Shown here: in pieces, positions 7,838-64,000 of the stretch
Layout of the letters: each line of letters starts with the position of its first letter
How positions within the stretch are numbered: the first letter of the stretch is position 1
Origin: Streptomyces sp. SCL15-4
GTDB lineage: Bacteria; Actinomycetota; Actinomycetes; Streptomycetales; Streptomycetaceae
Assembly (NCBI RefSeq): GCF_033366695.1
Contig: NZ_JAOBTQ010000001.1
Location: 4,030,001-4,094,000, forward strand
DNA length: 64,000 bases
Direction of reading: 5' to 3'
Program-made: the position numbers and the translations under genes
The notes under the pieces: generated by a model
The model's input: only the letters and a program-made list of their open reading frames with translations
Told to the model about the DNA's origin: nothing
Database searches by the model: none

Positions 7838-8790
7838 GTGAACGGTGCCCAGCGCATGTACGCATATGTCAAGTTCATGGAGAAGCTGGCCGAGTTACAT
7901 GGCGAAGCTTTTGAGGGTTTCTTCCACGACGTGATGTGCGCCCGGTATCCAGACTTTCTCGATGTGCGAACGCACGGCAACCTCGGGGACCAGGGCTCCG
8001 ACGGCCTCAGTCTGCACGGCGGTAAGTTGTACGCCTGCTACGCGCCTGCAACCTTCGATGTCGCCAAGGTCCGCAAGAAGTTCCATGACGACCTGGACTC
8101 CGCGCGGCGACAGCGACCGGGCCAGTTCAGCACGTTCGTCTTCGTCCACAATGACCTCCGCGGGATCCATCCCGAGGTCGCCACCATGTTGGCCGAAGCG
8201 CGCACCGCGCACACCCCCTCCGGTTCGAACAGATGGGACGCAGGCGCCTGTGGACCGAGTTGCTGCCCCTACCTCGTGAGACAGTCGAGTACGTTCTTGG
8301 CTGCGAGATACCCATCGAGGAACAGATATACGGGGTAGGCATGGGCGACCTCGCCCCACTGCTCGGCCGGTTGAAGGAGCAGCGTCGGACCGCTGATCCG
8401 CTGATGAGCCTGGCCGAGGTCAGCGACAGAAAACTCGACTTCAACGGGATCACCGGAGAGGTACGGGATGACCTGGTAGATGGCATGCGGTACACGCATC
8501 TCGTAGCTCAGTACTACGCCGGCGTGTATGACCCGTTCGAGCACGACGAGGTGGCCGCTGCATTCACTCAGGAGTACTTGGTCGCACGTGAGCGCAACAG
8601 TGACCCCGACCTGATCCTTCTCGACCTCCAGCACTACATCCACGGCAACCGCCTCCAGAGCTCACGAGAACTGAGTGCAGGCTGGGTCGTTCTGGCCCAC
8701 TTCTTCGAGCACTGCCACATTTTCGAGAACGCCCCGGAGCGATGGTTCCAGCGGACTACCCAGTGGGCCGGGGAGCGGCTGACATGCTGA
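7838..8790 (+). CDS. ABC three-component system REase-like protein, frameshifted
   Basis: First gene of an ABC-3C-type operon. GTG 7838 follows AAGGGGAGGG. The first 130 residues are a restriction-endonuclease-like region: FHDVMCARYPDFLDVRTHG, then GDQGSDGLSLHGGKLYACYA, where the D and the later charged residues fit a PD-(D/E)xK-like core. After a one-base deletion near 8220 the chain continues through HPLRFEQMGRRRLWTELLPL into a helical C-terminal domain ending with an HIF-rich segment. The rejoined length is about 317 residues. In this system class the protein is thought to recognise or cut invading nucleic acid under control of the ATPase partner. It overlaps the next gene by 7 bases. Confidence 0.7.
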
Positions 8791-9029
8791 CCCCAACCAA
8801 GGGCATCGCCCCCGATCGGTCCCTGCTCGCTGTCGGCGCCCAAATTCTCCAGGAACTGGACAGTCCCCTGACTGTCAGCCAGGCGTGGGCGCGGCTCAAG
8901 ACGCGTCGCTCTGAACTCGGTCACGGTTCGCCCGTCTCCTTCGGCTGGTTCGTGCTCGCTTTGGATGTCCTGCACGCCCTCGGGGCGGTTGAGATGCGTG
9001 ACGAGCTGCTGATGCCCAGGAGGCCCTGA
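8784..9029 (+). CDS. ABC three-component system middle component
   Basis: An 81-residue protein, with GGGGAG upstream of ATG 8784. It begins LTPTKGIAPDRSLLAVGAQI, then VSQAWARLKTRR and FGWFVLALDVLHALGAVE. This resembles the small winged-helix-like middle component (type 6, as I recall the naming) that sits between the REase-like protein and the DUF2326 ATPase in ABC-3C loci. It overlaps the first gene by 7 bases and its TGA shares one base with the ATG of the ATPase gene, so the three are translationally coupled. Confidence 0.72.
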   Translation: MLTPTKGIAPDRSLLAVGAQILQELDSPLTVSQAWARLKTRRSELGHGSPVSFGWFVLALDVLHALGAVEMRDELLMPRRP

Positions 9030-10792
9030 TGCTCCGCCGACTGAGCGCCGATGACCCGAGGTTCCGCCGCATTGACTTCTCCGCTGGCCTCAATCTCCTT
9101 GTAGCGAGCACTGCCGATGGTTCTGGCGACAAGGACAGCCGAAACGGCACTGGCAAGTCCAGCATGATTGAGCTCCTGCATTTTCTCCTCGGCGCACGCG
9201 CCGACAAGCGGAGCCTGCCGACACGCAAGGCTCTCCGGAAAATCGCCTTCAGTCTCGAACTGGACTGGCCGAGTGCGGACGGTGGACTACTCACCGTCAC
9301 CCGGAGCGGAGCACACCCGGAAGTCGTGCGGCTGAGCCAGGACGTCGGTGCGAACGAGCCAGAACACGAGTCTCTCTTCGACGTCGATGACGCGGGTCCT
9401 GTGGATATCCCGGCATCTCGATGGACAAAATTGCTCGAAAAAGAACTTTTCAGGCTAAGTGGGACGCATACTGGGCTGAGTGGGCGCACAATGCTTTCCT
9501 TTTTGATCCGTCGAATCTCCTCTCACGCCTTCAATGCACCAACACGTACGAACAGCCAGCAATCGGAGGCTGACGCGGCCACCAACCTCGCGTATCTCCT
9601 CGGCCTCGACTGGAAGCTCGCTGGCGGTTACCGCGAGATCTCTGCGCGGGAAGCCACCCGTCGTCAACTGCGCCAGGCCGTCAACGACCCGGTGTGGGGA
9701 CGGATCGTGGGCAGCACAGCAGAGCTCCGGGGCCAGATCACCATCGCCGAGGAGGACGTACGACGACTTGAGGAGCAGATCAAGGCGTTCCGCGTAGTGC
9801 CGCAGTACGAAGAGCTGAAACAACGTGCCGACGAGATCGACCGTGAGATTCGAGCCCTCAACTCCCAGGACTCCATCGATCGACGGAACCTGTCAGACCT
9901 GCAAACGGCGGTGCGGGACATCACCGACAGCGACGTCAGATATCTGGAACCCGTCTACCGAGAGCTGGGCATCTTGCTGGGTGACCAGGTCAAACGACGC
10001 TTTGATGACGTGAAGGACTTCCACAGGTCGATCATCCGCAACCGACAGCGCTACCTCGCCGAAGAGGTCGAGTCCCTCGAGAACAGGCTCGCTGAACGCG
10101 CAATGCGGCGCGAGCGACTGGGCGTCGAACTCCAGCAGGTCCTGCGCACTCTCAACGACGGTGGCGCCTTGGAAGCCCTGACCGCGCTGCAACAAGCCCT
10201 GGCACAAAAGCAGGCATCGGTGGAAGCCCTGCGTCACCGCTACGAGGCAGCCCAGACACTGGAAGCCAGTGCCCTGGAGATCAAAGCCAAGCGCCTCGAC
10301 CTTCAGCGTGCTCTCAAGGACGATCTGGACGAACGAGCCACACAGACCAGCGAAGCTACGGTCCTCTTCTCCGAGTTCGCCCAACGGCTGTACGGCTCAG
10401 GACGTCAGGCGTATCTAGAATTCGACGCCGGCCCCAGCAGCTTGCGGATCGTCCCACACGTCGACAGTGACGACAGTCGCGGTATCGGCAACATGGTGAT
10501 CTTCTGCTTCGACCTCACCATGGCCGTCGTCGCACACAGGCACGGACGAGGTCCTGACTTCCTCGTCCACGACAGCCATCTCTTCGACGGTGTCGACGAC
10601 AGGCAGCTCCGTGACGCCCTGGAATTGGCAGCGGAAGTAGCGGAACGCGAAGGGATGCAGTACATCGCCACGCTCAATTCCGACGACTTGGAGAAGGCGC
10701 AGCGCAGAGGGTACGACGCGTCGGGCAAGACGCTGCCGGTGCGCTTGGACGACGAGTATGACGACGGAGGGCTGTTCGGGTTCCGCTTTTAA
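9029..10792 (+). CDS. DUF2326 (YydD-like) ABC ATPase of the three-component system
   Basis: A 587-residue SMC/RecN-like ATPase. The N-terminal lobe contains a Walker A (SRNGTGKSSMIELLHFLLG, near residue 35). The middle (about 200-430) is a long coiled coil rich in Glu, Gln, Arg and Leu. The C-terminal lobe has a Walker B-like FLVHDSHLFDGVDDRQL near 510, followed by IATLNSDDL. This is the layout of the DUF2326 family. Family members in ABC-3C loci are predicted nucleic-acid or ring-sensing ATPases of anti-phage systems. This frame is intact, unlike its upstream partner. Confidence 0.85.
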   Translation: MLRRLSADDPRFRRIDFSAGLNLLVASTADGSGDKDSRNGTGKSSMIELLHFLLGARADKRSLPTRKALRKIAFSLELDWPSADGGLLTVTRSGAHPEVVRLSQDVGANEPEHESLFDVDDAGPVDIPASRWTKLLEKELFRLSGTHTGLSGRTMLSFLIRRISSHAFNAPTRTNSQQSEADAATNLAYLLGLDWKLAGGYREISAREATRRQLRQAVNDPVWGRIVGSTAELRGQITIAEEDVRRLEEQIKAFRVVPQYEELKQRADEIDREIRALNSQDSIDRRNLSDLQTAVRDITDSDVRYLEPVYRELGILLGDQVKRRFDDVKDFHRSIIRNRQRYLAEEVESLENRLAERAMRRERLGVELQQVLRTLNDGGALEALTALQQALAQKQASVEALRHRYEAAQTLEASALEIKAKRLDLQRALKDDLDERATQTSEATVLFSEFAQRLYGSGRQAYLEFDAGPSSLRIVPHVDSDDSRGIGNMVIFCFDLTMAVVAHRHGRGPDFLVHDSHLFDGVDDRQLRDALELAAEVAEREGMQYIATLNSDDLEKAQRRGYDASGKTLPVRLDDEYDDGGLFGFRF

Positions 10793-10953: not shown

Positions 10954-11451
10954 ATGCGCGAGTTCACCAACCACAAGGCACAGCACACGGTCGACATTCT
11001 GCGCGCCTTCTACCTGGAGACCCTGAACTTCTCCGAAACCAATCCTGAGGCGACGCTGACCGACTTCGAGCAACACTTGCGTCAGCGGGTCGACGCCTTG
11101 GAGGCGGAAATGGAGGCGGGTAAGAAAGCAGCCCAGGCAGCCGTCGGGACCAAGCCCCTGTCCGGCCCCCTGGCCGACCCCGAGCGCCAGCGAGCGTTCC
11201 GTCAGCTACAAGACGCGGGGCCACCGGCGACAGAGCCCGAGAGGGAAGCCTGGTGGGAGAAACGCAGGGCGGTGATCGACGAGATCAGAGCGCAGGGGCT
11301 GGCGGAGGCCCTCGACTGGGTGTGCCGTGACTGCGGCGCCCCGGTTGGGGTCGCTTGCCGCACGGCCGGCGGCAGGCCCACGAAGAAGCCTCACTTCCTT
11401 CGGGCCACTGACGCCGAAGCGCCGTACAACCACGCGTACGGCTTGCGCTGA
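10954..11451 (+). CDS. Phage-type zinc-finger protein
   Basis: A 165-residue protein. The N-terminal two thirds are helical and charged, with a possible short coiled coil near residues 40-60. The C-terminus has a CRDCGAPVGVACRTAGGRPT segment followed by HFLRA, which fits the small zinc finger common in actinophage and streptomycete mobile-element proteins (C-x2-C, x7, C, then H). It probably binds DNA. It follows the ABC-3C ATPase by 160 bases and may be separate cargo. Confidence 0.6.
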   Translation: MREFTNHKAQHTVDILRAFYLETLNFSETNPEATLTDFEQHLRQRVDALEAEMEAGKKAAQAAVGTKPLSGPLADPERQRAFRQLQDAGPPATEPEREAWWEKRRAVIDEIRAQGLAEALDWVCRDCGAPVGVACRTAGGRPTKKPHFLRATDAEAPYNHAYGLR

Positions 11452-11607: not shown

Positions 11608-12243
11608 CTACGCCTTGGGTCTTTTCGTTGCCGCGCGAGCCGCCTTCGCGTTGGCAGCCCCGTTGAGTCGTGCCAGATGGGCGCGTTGCGATACTTTGCC
11701 ACCGAAGGAGGACCAGCCGTAAAGGGACGCAATCAGTTCGGCTGCGACGGCTGCCGCCGAGGCTGATGCGGCGGTGGCCCTGGACATTATTGCAGGGGGC
11801 CTGGCCGCCCACCGACCTCTGCTCTGTACGGCCGTGATGGCACATTGCTCAGACCAGATCTCGAAGACCTGGGTGAGCCGGGCAAAGAAGGCAGCCACAG
11901 CGGCCAAGCATCCGTAGAAGGCGATGAGCCCTCCACCAATGCGGGCCGGGACACCCGGAGTCGGTGCGTGGTCGGTCCAAGGCCAGCCCATGACTGAGTA
12001 CACGACGGCCAGGCCGGCCGTAGCGCCGAGCCATGCAGACCCGATCAGACACTCAGGAATGCCGTCGTAATCATCCGACTCATCATCGCCCTTGTCGGGC
12101 CGTCGTCCAGCGCGAGTCGGATTACTTGACGTCTTCTTCCCGTAGGGAGGGAGAATGACCTGCCACAGGCCGCCGTGAACGTCACCGCCCACAAACGTGC
12201 CGGATCCGTGGTTGTGCTGCTCCCGGTGCTCAGTGTCCGCCAT
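11608..12243 (-). CDS. Membrane protein with N-terminal amyloid-like motif
   Basis: A 211-residue protein from ATG 12243 (GGCGGGA 6 bases upstream); ATG 12258 is an alternative. The N-terminus carries HNHGSGTFVGGDVHGG. Then come a charged linker and two hydrophobic stretches (LIGSAWLGATAGLAVVYSVM and IGGGLIAFYGCLAAVAAFFA) that should span the membrane. An Ala-rich helical C-terminus ends in Lys/Arg. The N-terminal motif is nearly the same as the C-terminal end of the overlapping upstream protein. I infer that the two interact through this motif, with this one as the membrane partner. No enzymatic domain is seen. Confidence 0.65.
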   Translation of the reverse strand: MADTEHREQHNHGSGTFVGGDVHGGLWQVILPPYGKKTSSNPTRAGRRPDKGDDESDDYDGIPECLIGSAWLGATAGLAVVYSVMGWPWTDHAPTPGVPARIGGGLIAFYGCLAAVAAFFARLTQVFEIWSEQCAITAVQSRGRWAARPPAIMSRATAASASAAAVAAELIASLYGWSSFGGKVSQRAHLARLNGAANAKAARAATKRPKA

Positions 12244-12643
12244 CTGGAATCCCGCCATAGTGCACGGTCATGCCACCATGAACGTCACCGCCGATGAACG
12301 TTCCCGTTCCGGTGTTGTACTGGTTCCAGACCTTCGACGCCAGCGGAGTGACTACTCCGAGGTCGCCCACCTCGCCCATGGCGTCGCGATGCTCGTCAAG
12401 GTACCGAGCGATGAGCTGCATCCAGACGGTCGCCGCTAGTTCGTGGGCCTCTGGAGAGGACGAGGCGAGAGCCGCGGCAGTGTCATCGACTGCCTGAACG
12501 GCCGACCTCTGTTGGTCCGGATCGGCCCGGCGAAAGAAGTGCGCGACCTTCTGGCGTATCTGCTCGGCACCAGACGTGGCGATGGCCGCAACAAGCGTGG
12601 CGGCCGCACCCGTGGCCACTGCAGTTAATTCGGCGTCGTACAT
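12230..12643 (-). CDS. Bell-like small protein with C-terminal amyloid-like motif
   Basis: A 137-residue protein from ATG 12643. It opens with YDAELTAVATGAAATLVAAI and continues to a basic FFRR segment. This hydrophobic N-terminal helix followed by a helical bundle occurs in many short Streptomyces proteins and resembles what has been described as the Bell domain (bacterial analogue of fungal HET-S/MLKL pore formers). The C-terminus carries TGTGTFIGGDVHGG, then MTVHYGG. Its stop overlaps the start of the next gene by 14 bases. The pore-forming role is inference from architecture only. Confidence 0.6.
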   Translation of the reverse strand: MYDAELTAVATGAAATLVAAIATSGAEQIRQKVAHFFRRADPDQQRSAVQAVDDTAAALASSSPEAHELAATVWMQLIARYLDEHRDAMGEVGDLGVVTPLASKVWNQYNTGTGTFIGGDVHGGMTVHYGGIPDGGH

Positions 12644-12787
12644 GATCGAGTCGTCTCCCCGCGCGTGGTGATGCACTCCAGGAGAACTTACCGTGCAGGA
12701 CTGACACTTCGAGGGGACAATGCACGCACACCTCGCGGCCCTTGCCTACCCCTTCCCGGAGCGCTCGCCGCGACGGGTCGGTGGGCT

Positions 12788-13195
12788 TTAGCTCAGCCAG
12801 CCGGCAATGGCGTGGACGAGTGCTTCGCCACCTTGCTCGACCACGGTCCCCGCTACCAGCGCGGGCAGTGCCTGTACGACTCCTCGGAGCGCTTCGACGC
12901 GTGCCTCGGGATTGGGCTCGGCCAGCGAGGCATCGACTGTGTCGGTCATCGCGCGCAACGCCACCGCGTGCGCCAGATTGCCTTGGTTGCGGTCGACTTC
13001 GGTGCGAAAGGAGACGAGGAGCCCACGGACGGTGTCGATGTCGACGGCTCCCTGGACAGAAGCTGACTGGTGTACATGGGAGATGTTCTGACCCACCACG
13101 TTCTGGTTCGGAGCGTTGTTGTTGCCTCCGATGTGAATGCCCGAGCCGCGCATCGAGTGCTCGTCTTCTCGGCGACCGCGTCCCCTGATCATCAT
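12788..13195 (-). CDS. Small helical protein with N-terminal Asn/Gly-rich motif
   Basis: A 135-residue protein; GGAGGCAA lies just upstream of ATG 13195, and ATGA overlaps the previous stop. After a short basic start it has GSGIHIGGNNNAPNQNVVGQ, then NISHVHQS. The remaining 100 residues form a helical domain (DIDTVRGLLVSFRTEVDRNQ, then PNPEARVEALRGVVQALPAL). The N-terminal motif closely matches the C-terminal end of the 612-residue membrane protein encoded just upstream. The helical domain resembles streptomycete DUF5955-like proteins, but I cannot confirm that. Confidence 0.6.
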   Translation of the reverse strand: MMIRGRGRREDEHSMRGSGIHIGGNNNAPNQNVVGQNISHVHQSASVQGAVDIDTVRGLLVSFRTEVDRNQGNLAHAVALRAMTDTVDASLAEPNPEARVEALRGVVQALPALVAGTVVEQGGEALVHAIAGWLS

Positions 13196-14970
13196 TTGCC
13201 TCCCTGGCTTCCGTTGCTTTGGCCCACGTCGCGGATGTCACTGCCCGCGACGTTTTGGATGGGAGCGTGATTGTCGCCGTACACCTGGATGTTGGTAATA
13301 ACCGCGGCGACCTGACGCTCGTACGGTGCTGTGTCGACGCCCAGTTCCTCCAGGTACTCGGCGACGGACCGGAAAATGCATGTCTGCATCAACACCACGT
13401 GCCGTTTGGCGTCATCGCTCTGGTGCATGTCGGTGACTTCCTCGATGGAGTACCGGTCACGCAGGCTGACCGGGTCCTTCTCCTCTTCGCGGTCCTTTTC
13501 ACTCTGCTGACCCCGCCCGAGCCGGGTCACGGTTCGCCAGACAGCCAGCGGCCCCGCCGCGGCGTCAAGGAGCGCTTGTGTGGCAACCCAGCCGAGCAGG
13601 CGGATCCCGCGCTTGGAGACCGGAGTGGAAGTCCCCCGCAGTTCGTTGTACAGGGGCGTCATGACGTGCGGTCGGACGGTGAGTCGTAGTTCTCCCGCCT
13701 CCAGCGCAGCGTGCACGAAGACGCTCACTACGACCTGACCGCCCCAGCTGACACACTGTGCACGCAGATACAGCCGGTCTGGCACGCTCGACGGCGACCG
13801 GCGTCCCCTGCCACGCAGGTTCGGCAGCTCCCGCTTCGCCACACGGGTGCGCTGTAGCCACAGCGGGGCAGGCAGTCCCTGCACCTCTGTCACGGTCAGA
13901 CCTGGCAACGGATCAGTGATCTCACGCGCTCCGCGTCCGAGCTCTCTCAGAGCCGAGCCCATCCGCCGTAGCAGCTCCCACTCCCCGAACCGCCGGACCG
14001 ACTCCTCCGGATCCTTGGGTACGAGCGGAATGCCAAGATCGGCGGCGCCCCAGACGTCACGTCCGGCGCCGACGAAGCGCTCCGGATGGTCGTACGGCAA
14101 TTCCAGCCCCGTCTGCTCGCTCCCCAACTGGGACACGCGACGCGCGGCTTTCCAAGCCACCCACGGCAACCGGTCGGACGACACTCCCTCACGCATGATT
14201 CGCGCTAGGGCCGCCCGGGCCGCCAACCGGTCACCAGCATGCACCAGCGCCGTCGCCATCGGGAACGCGAAGGGCAGCAGGAGCAGCCCGAGCCGTAGAC
14301 CCACCACCTCGCTTCCGGTTGGCTCGTAAGGAACAACCGCGAGCGCCCACGGCACGCACAGGACGATGTACGCGGACCTGGGAGAAGGCGCCAAACGTGA
14401 CTTCTTCACCTTCCGCGCCGCCCTCAGCGCGGCCCACCGCATCAGCAGAGCGACCAGGACCGCACCGCCCCAGACAACGGCAGCCCGTGGCGTGAGACAC
14501 ACCAAAGCTGCGGCTACGAGCAGCACACCCAGCCACCGCATCCACCACCACTGCCTTCTCGCGCGGAGACTATGCGCCACCACCGGCACGAGGTCGAACC
14601 CGTACGACGGGACAGGCAGCGGCGGCCCGTGCAGGACGTGATCCATCACCCACCGTGCCATCGGCTCTCCCAGCGGCGGACAGTCGTCACTGCCCTCCAG
14701 GTAGATGCGCCGACGTGTACTGCGTCGTGGTTTGTCCGTCTTGCTGCCCTTGCCTCGAACTTTGCGCCACCACTCCTTGACCGCTCTGACGCGGTCAGGG
14801 CGCGCGTACACGGCCTGGCACAGCAACCTGGTCACTTCCGACGAGGTCGGATCCACCTGACCGTGAGTTTCCTCCGCAGCGGGAGGGCTGGCCTGAACCG
14901 GTACCTCTGGTCCGTCGACCTCCTGCTCCGCGCCCCGCTCCCGGACACGCGTCCCCCGTCCGAACCCCAT
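13192..14970 (-). CDS. Membrane protein with C-terminal Asn/Gly-rich motif
   Basis: A 592-residue protein from ATG 14970; the frame is open to 15030 but upstream sequence is poor. Residues 150-260 hold about four hydrophobic segments (for example MRWLGVLLVAAALVCLTP and LRLGLLLLPFAFPMATALVH). The large C-terminal half is soluble, ending in QVYGDNHAPIQNVAGSDIRD then VGQSNG. This end matches the N-terminal motif of the 4-bp-overlapping downstream protein (N-x-A-P-x-Q-N-V-x-G). No catalytic motif was recognised. It may be the membrane-anchored sensor or effector of the pair. Confidence 0.65.
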   Translation of the reverse strand: MGFGRGTRVRERGAEQEVDGPEVPVQASPPAAEETHGQVDPTSSEVTRLLCQAVYARPDRVRAVKEWWRKVRGKGSKTDKPRRSTRRRIYLEGSDDCPPLGEPMARWVMDHVLHGPPLPVPSYGFDLVPVVAHSLRARRQWWWMRWLGVLLVAAALVCLTPRAAVVWGGAVLVALLMRWAALRAARKVKKSRLAPSPRSAYIVLCVPWALAVVPYEPTGSEVVGLRLGLLLLPFAFPMATALVHAGDRLAARAALARIMREGVSSDRLPWVAWKAARRVSQLGSEQTGLELPYDHPERFVGAGRDVWGAADLGIPLVPKDPEESVRRFGEWELLRRMGSALRELGRGAREITDPLPGLTVTEVQGLPAPLWLQRTRVAKRELPNLRGRGRRSPSSVPDRLYLRAQCVSWGGQVVVSVFVHAALEAGELRLTVRPHVMTPLYNELRGTSTPVSKRGIRLLGWVATQALLDAAAGPLAVWRTVTRLGRGQQSEKDREEEKDPVSLRDRYSIEEVTDMHQSDDAKRHVVLMQTCIFRSVAEYLEELGVDTAPYERQVAAVITNIQVYGDNHAPIQNVAGSDIRDVGQSNGSQGGK

Positions 14971-61494: not shown

Positions 61495-64000
61495 CTACTG
61501 CACAGGCTCATTCAGCGTTCCGCGCAACTCCGCCAAGGCGCGGGCGGCACGGGCCTCCTCGGCCGGGGCCCCGATGCGCCGGCTGACCGAGAGGCTCTCC
61601 TCCAAGTGCGTCACGGCCTGGTCCGTGCGTCCGGTGTCGCGCTCGGTCAGGGCCAGGTCGTAGAGGACGTCGGCCTCTTCACCTGCGGCGTGGATACGGC
61701 GGATCACCTCCAGGGCGGCGAGGTGCCGGGGCAGGGCCTGCTCGCCGCGGCCGGCCGCGCGGTGGGCCCGGCCGATCCCGTTCAGCGCGATGGCCTCGCC
61801 GCGCCGGTCGCCCACGGCTCGCAGCACCGGCAGGACCTGTCCGTACAGGACGAGGGCCTCCTCGGCTTTCCCGAGCGCGTCCAGCACGCTCGCCAAATTC
61901 ATCTGAAGAGTGGCCCTGTCCCTTTTGTTTCCCATTCCCTCAGCCACGCCTATCGCCTCGCGATAGGCGCTTTCGGCCGCCCGCAGATCACCCATCCTCT
62001 GGCACAGTTGCGCAATGTTGTTCAGCGTGCTGTATCTGCCTCGCCCGTCCGCTATTTCCGTGAAACCGGCCAGCGCCGACGTGAAGCATTCCAATGCCTC
62101 ACTGTTCTCGGCGAGGTGGAGATGGGTGATCCCGAGCAGGTTCCGGCTCCGCGCGATCTGCCGCTTGTTGTCCGTTCGCAGCAGGAAATTGAGAGACCTT
62201 TTCTGGAGTTCCTGGGCCTGGGCGTACTGGCCCGTCTGCCAGAGGGGGATCGACAGCTGGTGGACACATTCGCTCTGCAGCTCCCATTCCCCGAGGGAAC
62301 GTGCGACGTCCAGCGCCTCACTCGCGGCCGAGATCGCCTCCGCGTACCGGGAACTGTGGGTGTGGACGGCGCCGAGGTCGAGCAGGGCGCGCGCCCTGGC
62401 AGCGCTGTCACCTGCGGCGTCCCAGTGGGCGACGGCTCGTCGCAGCAACGGCTCGGCCGTGACGGCGTGCCCCTCCATGTCCAGGAATCCGGCCAGCACA
62501 TGGACGGAGAAAGCCAGTTGCCGTTCCGATCCGTGGTGTACAAGCCAGTCCAGTGTGTCCAACAGATTGGCGCCTTCGCTGATCAGCCATTGCTCGGCCG
62601 CCTGGGCGTCGGCGAGTTCGGGACATGACAGACCGGGGTCGGCCGCCTGGTGATCTATGCGCGAGCGAAAGGGATAGGCCAGCCGGTCCGCCCGGTCCGC
62701 GGTCCGAACGTAGTGCTCCACCAGGGCGCGTTCGGCCCGCCGGCAATCATCCTCGGACTCGGTGTCACCGGATTCGATCAACGATCGCGCGTAGTCGCGC
62801 AGGAGATCATGCATGGTGAACCGGTACGGAGACTTCTCGGAAACCAGGTGGTGGGCCAGGAGTTCCTCCAGCACGCGCCCGGCCACCGGGGCGGACAGGC
62901 CGGTGAGTGCCGCCACCGCGTGCGGGGTGAATTCCGTGCCGACATGCAGCCCGATGCGCCGGAAGACCAGTTGCTGCTCCGCGCTGAGCGCACGGTACGA
63001 CAGCTCGAAGACATGGGTCATCGACCGTTCCCCGTCGCGCAGCTGGGTCAGATGCGCGCCGCCGGTGCGCAGCTGGCGCAGCAGGTCGGACGTGCCCCAC
63101 GAGGGCCGGGCGAGCAGCCGACTCGCGACGATCTCGATGGCCAGGGGCAGGTGGCCGCACATCCGGACGATCTCGGCGATGTCCGTTTCGTCGGCACCGG
63201 ACCGCACCCCCAGCCGCCGCGCGAAGAGCGCCATCGCGTCCGCGCGCGGCAGCACGTCGAGGGAGACCGGCCGCACTCCGGGAAGTCCGGGAAGCCGCGG
63301 CGGCGGCTGGTCACGATCACGGCCGTCGGCGAGGCGCCGGGCAGCAGCGGACGGACCTGCTCGGACCCGGCCGCGTCGTCCAGGATCACCAGCATGCGGC
63401 GGTCCCGGGTGGCCGTACGCCACAGCGCGGCCAGCGCGTCGGTGTCGTGGGACAGTTCCTTTGCTTCCATGCCGAGCAGCCGCAGCAGTTCGGTGAGGGC
63501 CCGGGCCGCGGTGGTGGCCGTCCGGCCGGGATGGCCCCCGCCCAGGTGCAGGAAGAGGCGCCCGTCGGGGAAGCGGTCCCGTAATCGGTGTGCCAGGTGG
63601 ACGGCCAGCGCGGTCTTGCCGACGCCTCCCATCCCGTCGATCGCCTCCACCGTGACGACCACGGCCGAGCCGTCCTGGCCCTCGCAGAGCGCCGAGGTGA
63701 GCCGTCGCAGTTCGTCGCGCCGTCCGACCCACGGGACGTCCCGCGGGAGATTGTCCGGGACGCCGGGGGCCGGCCGGGCCGGCTTCTTCCCGCCGCCACC
63801 GGTGCTCCCGAGCAGGGCCGCGGCCGGCGTGCCGGCCAGGATGCCCTGGTGGACGCGGTGCAGGCCGCGGCCGGCGTCGAGGCCGATGTCGCGGACCACG
63901 CGCTGCCGCGTCCGCTGGAGCAGTCTGGTGGCCTCGGCCGTGCGGTTGCTCCCGTACAGCGCGACGGCCAGCCGCTCGGCCAGCGCCTCGTCCACGGGAT
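61495..64000 (-). CDS. AfsR-type SARP-STAND regulator, 5' end outside the window, frameshifted
   Basis: The window edge cuts the N-terminal DNA-binding domain. What is present begins in the BTAD domain (DEALAERLAVALYGSNRTAE; QRVVRDIGLDAGRGLHRVHQ). The STAND ATPase follows: P-loop AIDGMGGVGKTALAVHLAH, LVILDDAAGSEQVRPLLPG (Walker B), then GHLPLAIEIVASRLLARP (sensor). A one-base shift near 63295 joins the two halves. The C-terminal 350 residues are about eight TPR-like repeats (for example RALLDLGAVHTHSSRYAEAI). Proteins of this type activate secondary metabolism under phosphorylation or ligand control. Confidence 0.92.
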   Translation of the reverse strand, partial: SRGRGAGRAAGRRAVREQPHGRGHQTAPADAAARGPRHRPRRRPRPAPRPPGHPGRHAGRGPAREHRWRREEAGPAGPRRPGQSPAGRPVGRTARRTATAHLGALRGPGRLGRGRHGGGDRRDGRRRQDRAGRPPGTPITGPLPRRAPLPAPGRGPSRPDGHHRGPGPHRTAAAARHGSKGTVPRHRRAGRAVAYGHPGPPHAGDPGRRGRVRAGPSAAARRLADGRDRDQPPPRLPGLPGVRPVSLDVLPRADAMALFARRLGVRSGADETDIAEIVRMCGHLPLAIEIVASRLLARPSWGTSDLLRQLRTGGAHLTQLRDGERSMTHVFELSYRALSAEQQLVFRRIGLHVGTEFTPHAVAALTGLSAPVAGRVLEELLAHHLVSEKSPYRFTMHDLLRDYARSLIESGDTESEDDCRRAERALVEHYVRTADRADRLAYPFRSRIDHQAADPGLSCPELADAQAAEQWLISEGANLLDTLDWLVHHGSERQLAFSVHVLAGFLDMEGHAVTAEPLLRRAVAHWDAAGDSAARARALLDLGAVHTHSSRYAEAISAASEALDVARSLGEWELQSECVHQLSIPLWQTGQYAQAQELQKRSLNFLLRTDNKRQIARSRNLLGITHLHLAENSEALECFTSALAGFTEIADGRGRYSTLNNIAQLCQRMGDLRAAESAYREAIGVAEGMGNKRDRATLQMNLASVLDALGKAEEALVLYGQVLPVLRAVGDRRGEAIALNGIGRAHRAAGRGEQALPRHLAALEVIRRIHAAGEEADVLYDLALTERDTGRTDQAVTHLEESLSVSRRIGAPAEEARAARALAELRGTLNEPVQ

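Follow-up and report, generated by a model that had tools for sequence, protein, structure and literature searches.

Co-varying terminal motifs in overlapping Streptomyces gene pairs suggest membrane-linked, immune-type switches that would fire effectors without a NOD-like receptor

Introduction

The closest described relatives of the genes considered here are the signalosomes built on bacterial amyloid signalling sequences (BASS), BELL-domain proteins and NOD-like receptors (NLRs), for which Dyrka et al. 2020 is reportedly the primary paper. BASS/BELL-NLR signalosomes are found in filamentous actinobacteria and consist of genes that adjoin or overlap and whose facing ends carry short motifs that match (PMC7889193, PMC8086366). 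A review of the field asks whether signalling amyloids that are independent of NLRs exist (PMC7889193). Here we describe two overlapping gene pairs, P0001/P0002 (pair 1) and P0003/P0004 (pair 2), in a stretch of 64,000 nucleotides from Streptomyces sp. SCL15-4 (contig NZ_JAOBTQ010000001.1, positions 4,030,001 to 4,094,000; the whole stretch is called the window), which carry matched motifs at their facing ends. Our literature search found no description of NLR-free matched pairs of this kind; the supplement of the primary BASS paper may contain some of the loci.

Compared by description, both pairs resemble BASS/BELL-NLR signalosomes in being adjacent or overlapping genes with a match between a C-terminal and an N-terminal motif, and P0003 may resemble their BELL component as a small, putatively helical effector candidate with a borderline hydrophobic helix and a C-terminal motif; TIR, which we find in homologues of pair 1, also appears there among the domains associated less often. 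The window pairs differ in that no NLR adjoins them and the partners bearing the N-terminal motif are not NLRs. In pair 2 the NLR position is held by the 211-residue membrane protein P0004, and pair 1 is reversed, with the C-terminal motif on the membrane protein and the N-terminal motif on the putative effector. The fungal NWD2/HET-S system, in which a NACHT-WD NLR with an N-terminal motif is the receptor and a HeLo protein with a C-terminal motif is the effector, shares with our pairs a two-component receptor-effector scheme, a common motif and adjacent genes (PMC5485727); here, in contrast, a membrane protein stands in the place of the NLR, pair 1 is inverted and any amyloid nature is putative. 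The motifs are about 20 residues long, with Q and G near the centre in the type found in pair 1 (type A), as in RHIM, PP and BASS3 motifs (PMC5485727, PMC7889193), but type A (APxQNVxG) and the pair-2 motifs lack, by eye, the GxQxG segment. A further point of comparison is EACC1, a small protein with a single transmembrane (TM) segment whose partner often begins with a caspase-like domain (Kaur et al. 2020, PMC7159879). EACC1 systems are likewise actinobacterial, membrane-associated and made of two genes with variable effector domains, but Pfam places neither P0001 nor P0002 in a family above cut-off, TM stretches occur more than once in P0001, and the description of EACC1 in PMC7159879 mentions no matched motif in the part drawn on here. 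Finally, the CAP12/Pycsar TIR family (PF10137) supplies the partner domain in eight loci homologous to pair 1, where, unlike in CAP12/Pycsar systems, a matched motif precedes it at the N-terminus and the facing gene encodes a membrane protein.

Results

An earlier note on this DNA had pointed to four open reading frames (ORFs) arranged as two pairs, overlapping by 4-14 bases, with motifs (termed amyloid-like there) matched at the facing ends and membrane segments in one member of each pair, and all of this was confirmed. The four translations are found as claimed on the minus strand, the overlap is 4 nt (ATGA) in pair 1 and 14 nt in pair 2, and the membrane segments lie in P0001 and P0004. At the facing gene ends of pair 1, GDNHAPIQNVAGSDIRDVGQS near the C-terminus of P0001 resembles GNNNAPNQNVVGQNISHVHQS near the N-terminus of P0002 (BLOSUM62 local score 69), and in pair 2 TGTGTFIGGDVHGG near the C-terminus of P0003 resembles HGSGTFVGGDVHGG near the N-terminus of P0004 (score 82). 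Composition shuffles, 2000 for each pair, gave means of 26.3 and 24.4 and maxima of 49 and 54 for pairs 1 and 2, respectively, and none reached the observed score. The sequence scores between the two pairs are only 23 and 28, which agrees with the note's view of two separate pairs with little cross-match. The same genome holds two further P0001-type modules, each with its own matched motif (L165, G000:C1 233923-236981; L166, G000:C1 5937389-5939462), which makes three such modules and pair 2. When upstream ends were scored against downstream ends in a four-by-four matrix for this genome, the diagonal read 69, 90, 67 and 82, and the highest off-diagonal score was 48.

A search with P0001 across 295 genomes of the genus (E ≤ 1e-3) returned family matches in 270, motif-free paralogues included. 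Ten of the matches are close relatives (63-100% identity, counting the window's own copy), others form a middle tier, and a distant tier has the motif-free paralogues among its members. A first set of 40 loci was taken from the match list and its family ORFs were found with an iterated profile, giving 41 ORFs with the window included. The neighbour of each was chosen by position alone, as an ORF whose start codon lies between 20 nt before and 60 nt after the stop codon of the upstream gene, which we call the sensor gene. By eye, 34 of the 41 C-termini were read as motif-bearing and the others as bare, and all 34 motif-ended ORFs have a positional neighbour. The second set, which is the top of the match list and not a random draw, comprised 40 new loci, six of them from genomes searched before, together with the two further own-genome loci already read; it yielded 41 family ORFs, 40 of them with a positional neighbour. 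The positional rule picked the wrong ORF in L165 and L225 and found no neighbour for L222, L203 has no family ORF, and for the broken or partial sensor genes of L108, L115 and L204 only the open piece was used.

The paired motifs co-vary across these loci. We scored the C-terminal 75 residues of each sensor against the N-terminal 100 residues of each neighbour in every combination, keeping one representative per cluster at 60% body identity, a step after which some relatedness remains. In the first set (16 clusters) the true pairings add up to 1129, and permuted pairings average 545 (standard deviation, sd, 61); for all 74 pairs from Streptomyces and its relatives (31 clusters) the sum is 2268 against 980 (sd 71, maximum 1432), and for the 15 clusters found only in the second set, two of which hold own-genome loci, it is 1139 against 487 (sd 60). 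In none of the three cases did any of 100,000 permutations reach the observed sum, so that the co-variation for which the earlier note had proposed to look is present. Mean motif scores are 73 within a locus and 30 across clusters; motifs vary widely from cluster to cluster, with at least 15 types by eye, yet remain matched inside each locus, as in the sensor/partner motifs GDNNQVNTGNMGGGMQQ/GSGNQVNTGRVGGDMRQ (L112), NSGVINYGEMGSVQNQPGA/SSGVVNYGAMGNVQNQPGA (L113), ASGAFAFGEHSVANNQEA/AKGAFAFGAHSVANNYEA (L121) and NNSFVHGDNNTTNSGTQ/NNSFVTGNNNTTNSGTQ (L218). At identical aligned residues (L165 and L225 excluded) the two motifs share the codon in 702 of 1119 cases (0.63), where codon usage by itself would give 0.60, and the match is therefore maintained generally at the level of protein; in pair 1 of the window the codon is the same at 6 of 15 identical residues.

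Eight members of the P0001 family, about 25% identical to P0001, are motif-free paralogues (L290 in this genome, L124, L127, L128 and L131-L134), and such matches are frequent across the genus. The seven from the first set end in ...VQ[DA]PxPxKAD[VL]YDA, and L290 is an eighth of this kind. None of the eight has, by eye, a matched neighbour; a positional ORF lies beside two of the seven first-set paralogues and is motif-less by eye in both. As a separate observation, the partners in L122, L125, L135 and L139 carry, by eye, two tandem motif copies (for example GGISIGRMTGGAAASG ... GGIAIGEMAGGAAAAG), recalling two-rung HET-s.

The domain that follows the partner's motif is not constant. All eight second-set partners that were tested combine the motif with PF10137 (E 7e-21 to 8e-28) and contain an invariant glutamate within an RPNVL[IV]ELG stretch, a family that the window's own P0002 does not match in the Pfam scan. 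First-set partners are often DUF5955-like, with 8 of 22 scanned matching PF19380 at E ≤ 0.1 (best 4.3e-6), and P0002 itself has no PF19380 match at that threshold. By hydropathy, a TM stretch is present in the upstream protein of 71 of the 74 pairs and in the partner of 29; among the listed non-TIR representatives, partners with such a stretch carry it as their C-terminal helix. Because a TIR domain occupies the partner position in eight homologous loci, the partner bearing the N-terminal motif is probably the effector of pair 1 and the upstream membrane protein its sensor, a polarity that would probably be the inverse of that of HET-S/NWD2. At one locus without a P0001 homologue (L005:1459-2807) a DUF5955-like partner (E 0.044) faces a membrane-bound-looking FHA protein (E 1.2e-19); the motif score of 52 for this FHA-TM protein and its partner is equalled by 5 of 2000 shuffles and makes this a weaker case. 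We note separately that, of 16 genus genomes searched, 15 have one strong DUF5955 match each (L292-L306), as against none of nine genomes from outside the genus. Of the 15 conserved DUF5955 proteins read, 12 are motif-less, and L302, L304 and L305 are unresolved. A literature search for DUF5955 by name found no mention.

P0004 has matches in 13 of the 295 genus genomes (E ≤ 1e-3), and the eight with E ≤ 3e-30, the window's own included, all adjoin a P0003 homologue, decayed in two cases (G082, G281). The P0003 family is wide, being present in 88 of the 295 genomes, and a positional neighbour is present for 34 of its 42 ORFs. The partners fall into P0004, a protein of 225-248 residues whose tail looks hydrophobic by eye, and large proteins; among the latter, tests showed one to be a NACHT protein with the same motif type (L096, E 1e-8) and one a TPR protein with weak STAND matches (L149). 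Across 19 clusters the true pairings sum to 846 against a permuted 583 (sd 56; 0 of 100,000 permutations), and the signal stems from loci of the FIGGD type and from L114. In terms of BELL features, P0003, a candidate BELL protein, has a borderline hydrophobic N-terminal helix, a C-terminal motif and, in a relative, a NACHT partner; P0001 is not BELL-like. Since the partner classes of the P0003 family include both P0004 and a NACHT protein, pair 2 is best read, from these comparisons, as a BELL/BASS-like pair in which the membrane protein P0004 would replace the NLR. Two side observations concern this family. At L114:2084-2737 a P0003 homologue ending GRGRVYQAGRDQQITE lies beside a downstream 695-residue ORF starting SGSGRVYQAQRDQYVTE, a further matched type that adjoins a P0001-type module. 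In L142, L146 and L159, P0003 homologues have RHIM-like ends by eye (G-x-V-I-Q; for example GGTYYGQVIQAHDI) and no positional neighbour.

The earlier note had also suggested that no NLR stands beside the pairs, and this proved correct. Neither P0002 nor P0004 has a NACHT, NB-ARC or other Pfam match above cut-off, and the whole genome has no NACHT match over cut-off, with one sub-threshold match 169 kb away. NB-ARC matches occur at 11 places in the genome, 10 of them over cut-off, and the nearest, window 63285-63716 (-), is separated from the pairs by 48 kb. When the four motifs were compared with ten regions that cover all 11 NB-ARC places and with the rest of the window, nothing scored above 45 (the true partners score 68 and 82). 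As an aside, there are two NB-ARC matches near the window end, the one just given and one just beyond it (G000:C1:4095518-4095943), and a frame in that region (L319) holds QARDIHGGLHFH, which by eye looks like another actinobacterial amyloid-type motif.

The arrangement P0001-P0002-P0003 is seen again in G207 (L098/L246) and also in G001 (L141), where P0001-P0002 have decayed. Close relatives of pair 1 were located at 27 loci in named records, almost all of which bear a Streptomyces title, the other titles being Actinacidiphila soli and one Streptosporangium nondiastaticum. In a draw across the phylum, 12 of 246 genomes gave a match, three of them outside the order. Two of these three have matched motifs (L286, score 74; L287, score 76; no shuffle among 2000 reached either score), and the contigs of the third stop too soon for a reading.

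The features of the four window genes are collected in Table 1. Pfam and NCBIfam scans placed none of P0001, P0002, P0003 and P0004 in a family above cut-off, and P0001 has no Pfam match even at E ≤ 1. The AlphaFold2 model of P0002 is disordered over residues 1-49 (predicted local distance difference test, pLDDT, below 50) and a confident four-helix bundle over the remainder. An ABC-three-component-type (ABC-3C) locus adjoins the pairs (window 8233-10792, +; CTD10, MC6 and DUF2326; PADLOC PDC-M68A/B), and the pairs therefore adjoin a candidate defence system; between this locus and pair 2 lies a gene for a small protein with a phage-type zinc-binding domain (window 10954-11451, +; PF24623, E 1.7e-7). 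On the other flank, the neighbours tested are an MMPL protein and a histidine kinase.

Table 1. Positions in the window of the genes of both pairs and of their features
Feature	Window position	Strand	Remark
P0001, 592 residues, putative membrane sensor of pair 1	13192..14970	-	TM stretches
P0001 first hydrophobic (TM hairpin) region, residues 142-182	14425..14547	-	hydropathy; helices in low-confidence model
P0001 second hydrophobic region, residues 222-245	14236..14307	-	hydropathy
P0001 C-terminal motif GDNHAPIQNVAGSDIRDVGQS	13216..13278	-	
P0002, 135 residues, N-terminal motif and four-helix bundle, putative effector of pair 1	12788..13195	-	
P0002 N-terminal motif GNNNAPNQNVVGQNISHVHQS	13064..13126	-	
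P0002 helical domain, residues 50-135	12791..13048	-	AlphaFold2 pLDDT about 88
P0003, 137 residues, BELL-like putative effector of pair 2	12230..12643	-	NACHT partner in homologue
P0003 N-terminal hydrophobic helix, residues 4-24	12572..12634	-	hydropathy 1.63, borderline
P0003 C-terminal motif TGTGTFIGGDVHGG	12272..12313	-	
P0004, 211 residues, small membrane partner of pair 2, occupies NLR position	11608..12243	-	
P0004 N-terminal motif HGSGTFVGGDVHGG	12169..12210	-	
P0004 TM segment, residues 102-120	11884..11940	-	hydropathy 1.99

Discussion

We have found that two neighbouring gene pairs in Streptomyces carry private, matched motifs at their facing ends, and the co-variation of these motifs suggests membrane-linked, immune-type switches that would fire their effectors by assembly of one motif on the other, without an NLR receptor. 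On balance we favour the view that both pairs are NLR-free two-gene modules, each with a sensor anchored in the membrane that uses the matched short motifs to activate the effector encoded beside it. In pair 1 signalling would run from P0001, which has a TM region, a conserved domain of soluble type and the C-terminal motif, and which would cluster upon a stimulus. The clustered P0001 motifs would nucleate an ordered beta assembly, amyloid or beta-solenoid-like, and this assembly would template the matching N-terminal motif of P0002, thereby clustering and activating the C-terminal domain of P0002, a four-helix bundle here and TIR in relatives. In pair 2 the membrane protein P0004, with its N-terminal motif, would act in the role of an NLR and template the C-terminal motif of the BELL-like P0003, a putatively helical protein whose N-terminal helix is hydrophobic. 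The outcome in either case may be an immune response or cell death. Because each pair has its private motif, pairs that coexist in one cell would remain insulated.

Several observations weigh against this view. Over partners from other clusters, the true partner ranks first in only 25 of 34 cases in the first set and 25 of 40 in the second; most failures were outscored by partners from clusters with an identical or similar motif type, and those of L165 and L225 reflect the wrong ORF taken by the positional rule (the correct ORF of L165 scores 90). At L221, 23 of 24 codons are identical, and some loci look like recent copies at the level of DNA. In a draft contig of Streptomyces lycii (L260:4022-5899) sensor and partner form one ORF, possibly through an assembly error, and its two motifs match weakly (score 36, equalled by 61 of 2000 shuffles). 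As for the window proteins, P0002 has no TM segment by hydropathy and no specific fold match in structure comparison, the AlphaFold model of P0001 is too weak for interpretation (pLDDT 55.5), and both pair-1 motifs are modelled at a pLDDT below 50, which would be compatible with amyloid motifs and equally with any disordered linker. In the P0003 family, most large-partner loci of the L149 kind score no higher than background, and 8 of the 42 ORFs, six of them with motif-like ends, lack a positional neighbour. We also note that NB-ARC proteins are encoded elsewhere in the genome, and an unrelated NLR could act in trans.

The motifs might instead be docking tags that hold a constitutive heterodimer together by beta-strand or beta-solenoid addition, with no prion-like templating. 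The co-variation data require specific recognition only, the tight operon overlap favours co-translational assembly, and the fusion at L260, unless it is an assembly error, merges both proteins with poorly matched motifs, as a stable complex would permit. We nevertheless regard such docking as unlikely, though it deserves serious thought, since many motifs are rich in G, N and Q and repeat-like, resembling amyloid signalling motifs, and the P0003 family resembles BELL/BASS systems in where its motif lies and, for one of the homologues tested, in having a NACHT partner. TIR domains, moreover, are of a type activated by oligomerisation, so that the TIR-type partner domains also speak for assembly. 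Nor do we think that the match is a by-product of low-complexity composition or of a recent local DNA duplication over the gene junction, without function. The motifs are indeed rich in G, N, Q and A and a few loci such as L221 have near-identical codons, but sums as high as those observed are reached neither by shuffles nor by pairing different loci of similar composition, codon identity as a whole lies close to what codon usage predicts and the matching holds across clusters below 60% body identity; such an origin is scarcely credible.

The sense of pair 1 could also be the reverse of the one we favour, with P0002 as a sensor or an antitoxin-like inhibitor and the membrane protein P0001 as the killer. 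The TM segments do sit in P0001, and the overlap with the downstream gene is like that of some toxin-antitoxin pairs. TIR, however, is an effector class and takes the downstream position in eight loci, and the eight motif-free P0001 paralogues without a matched neighbour would not be tolerated if the protein were a toxin dependent on an antidote, which makes this reversal very improbable. A sensor role for P0001 and an effector role for P0002 depart in part from the earlier note, which had cited, as background for both pairs, the BASS polarity of a C-terminal motif on the effector and an N-terminal motif on its partner. That polarity would fit pair 2, with its BELL-like P0003, and fails for pair 1, which is probably inverted. 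The note's suggestion of membrane attack lacks support in pair 1, where P0002 is predicted to form a four-helix bundle and has no TM segment, and its expectation that the partners do not occur apart largely holds for pair 1 but less well in the P0003 family.

It is about an even chance, in our judgement, that the Actinomycetota harbour a large NLR-independent superfamily of amyloid signalling systems, in which membrane sensors of the P0001 family, and perhaps FHA-TM proteins, would fire TIR or four-helix effectors through private motif pairs of at least 15 diverged yet matched types, with several insulated pairs per cell. The pair-1 family is a concrete and abundant candidate for the NLR-independent signalling amyloids whose existence has been put as a question (PMC7889193). 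The loci described here lay out natural swaps of the effector, between helical bundle and TIR, and of the sensor, between membrane protein and NACHT. Dozens of matched and mutually distinct motif pairs provide a resource for working out the specificity code of templated assembly, and the same pairs may be usable for building insulated synthetic switches.

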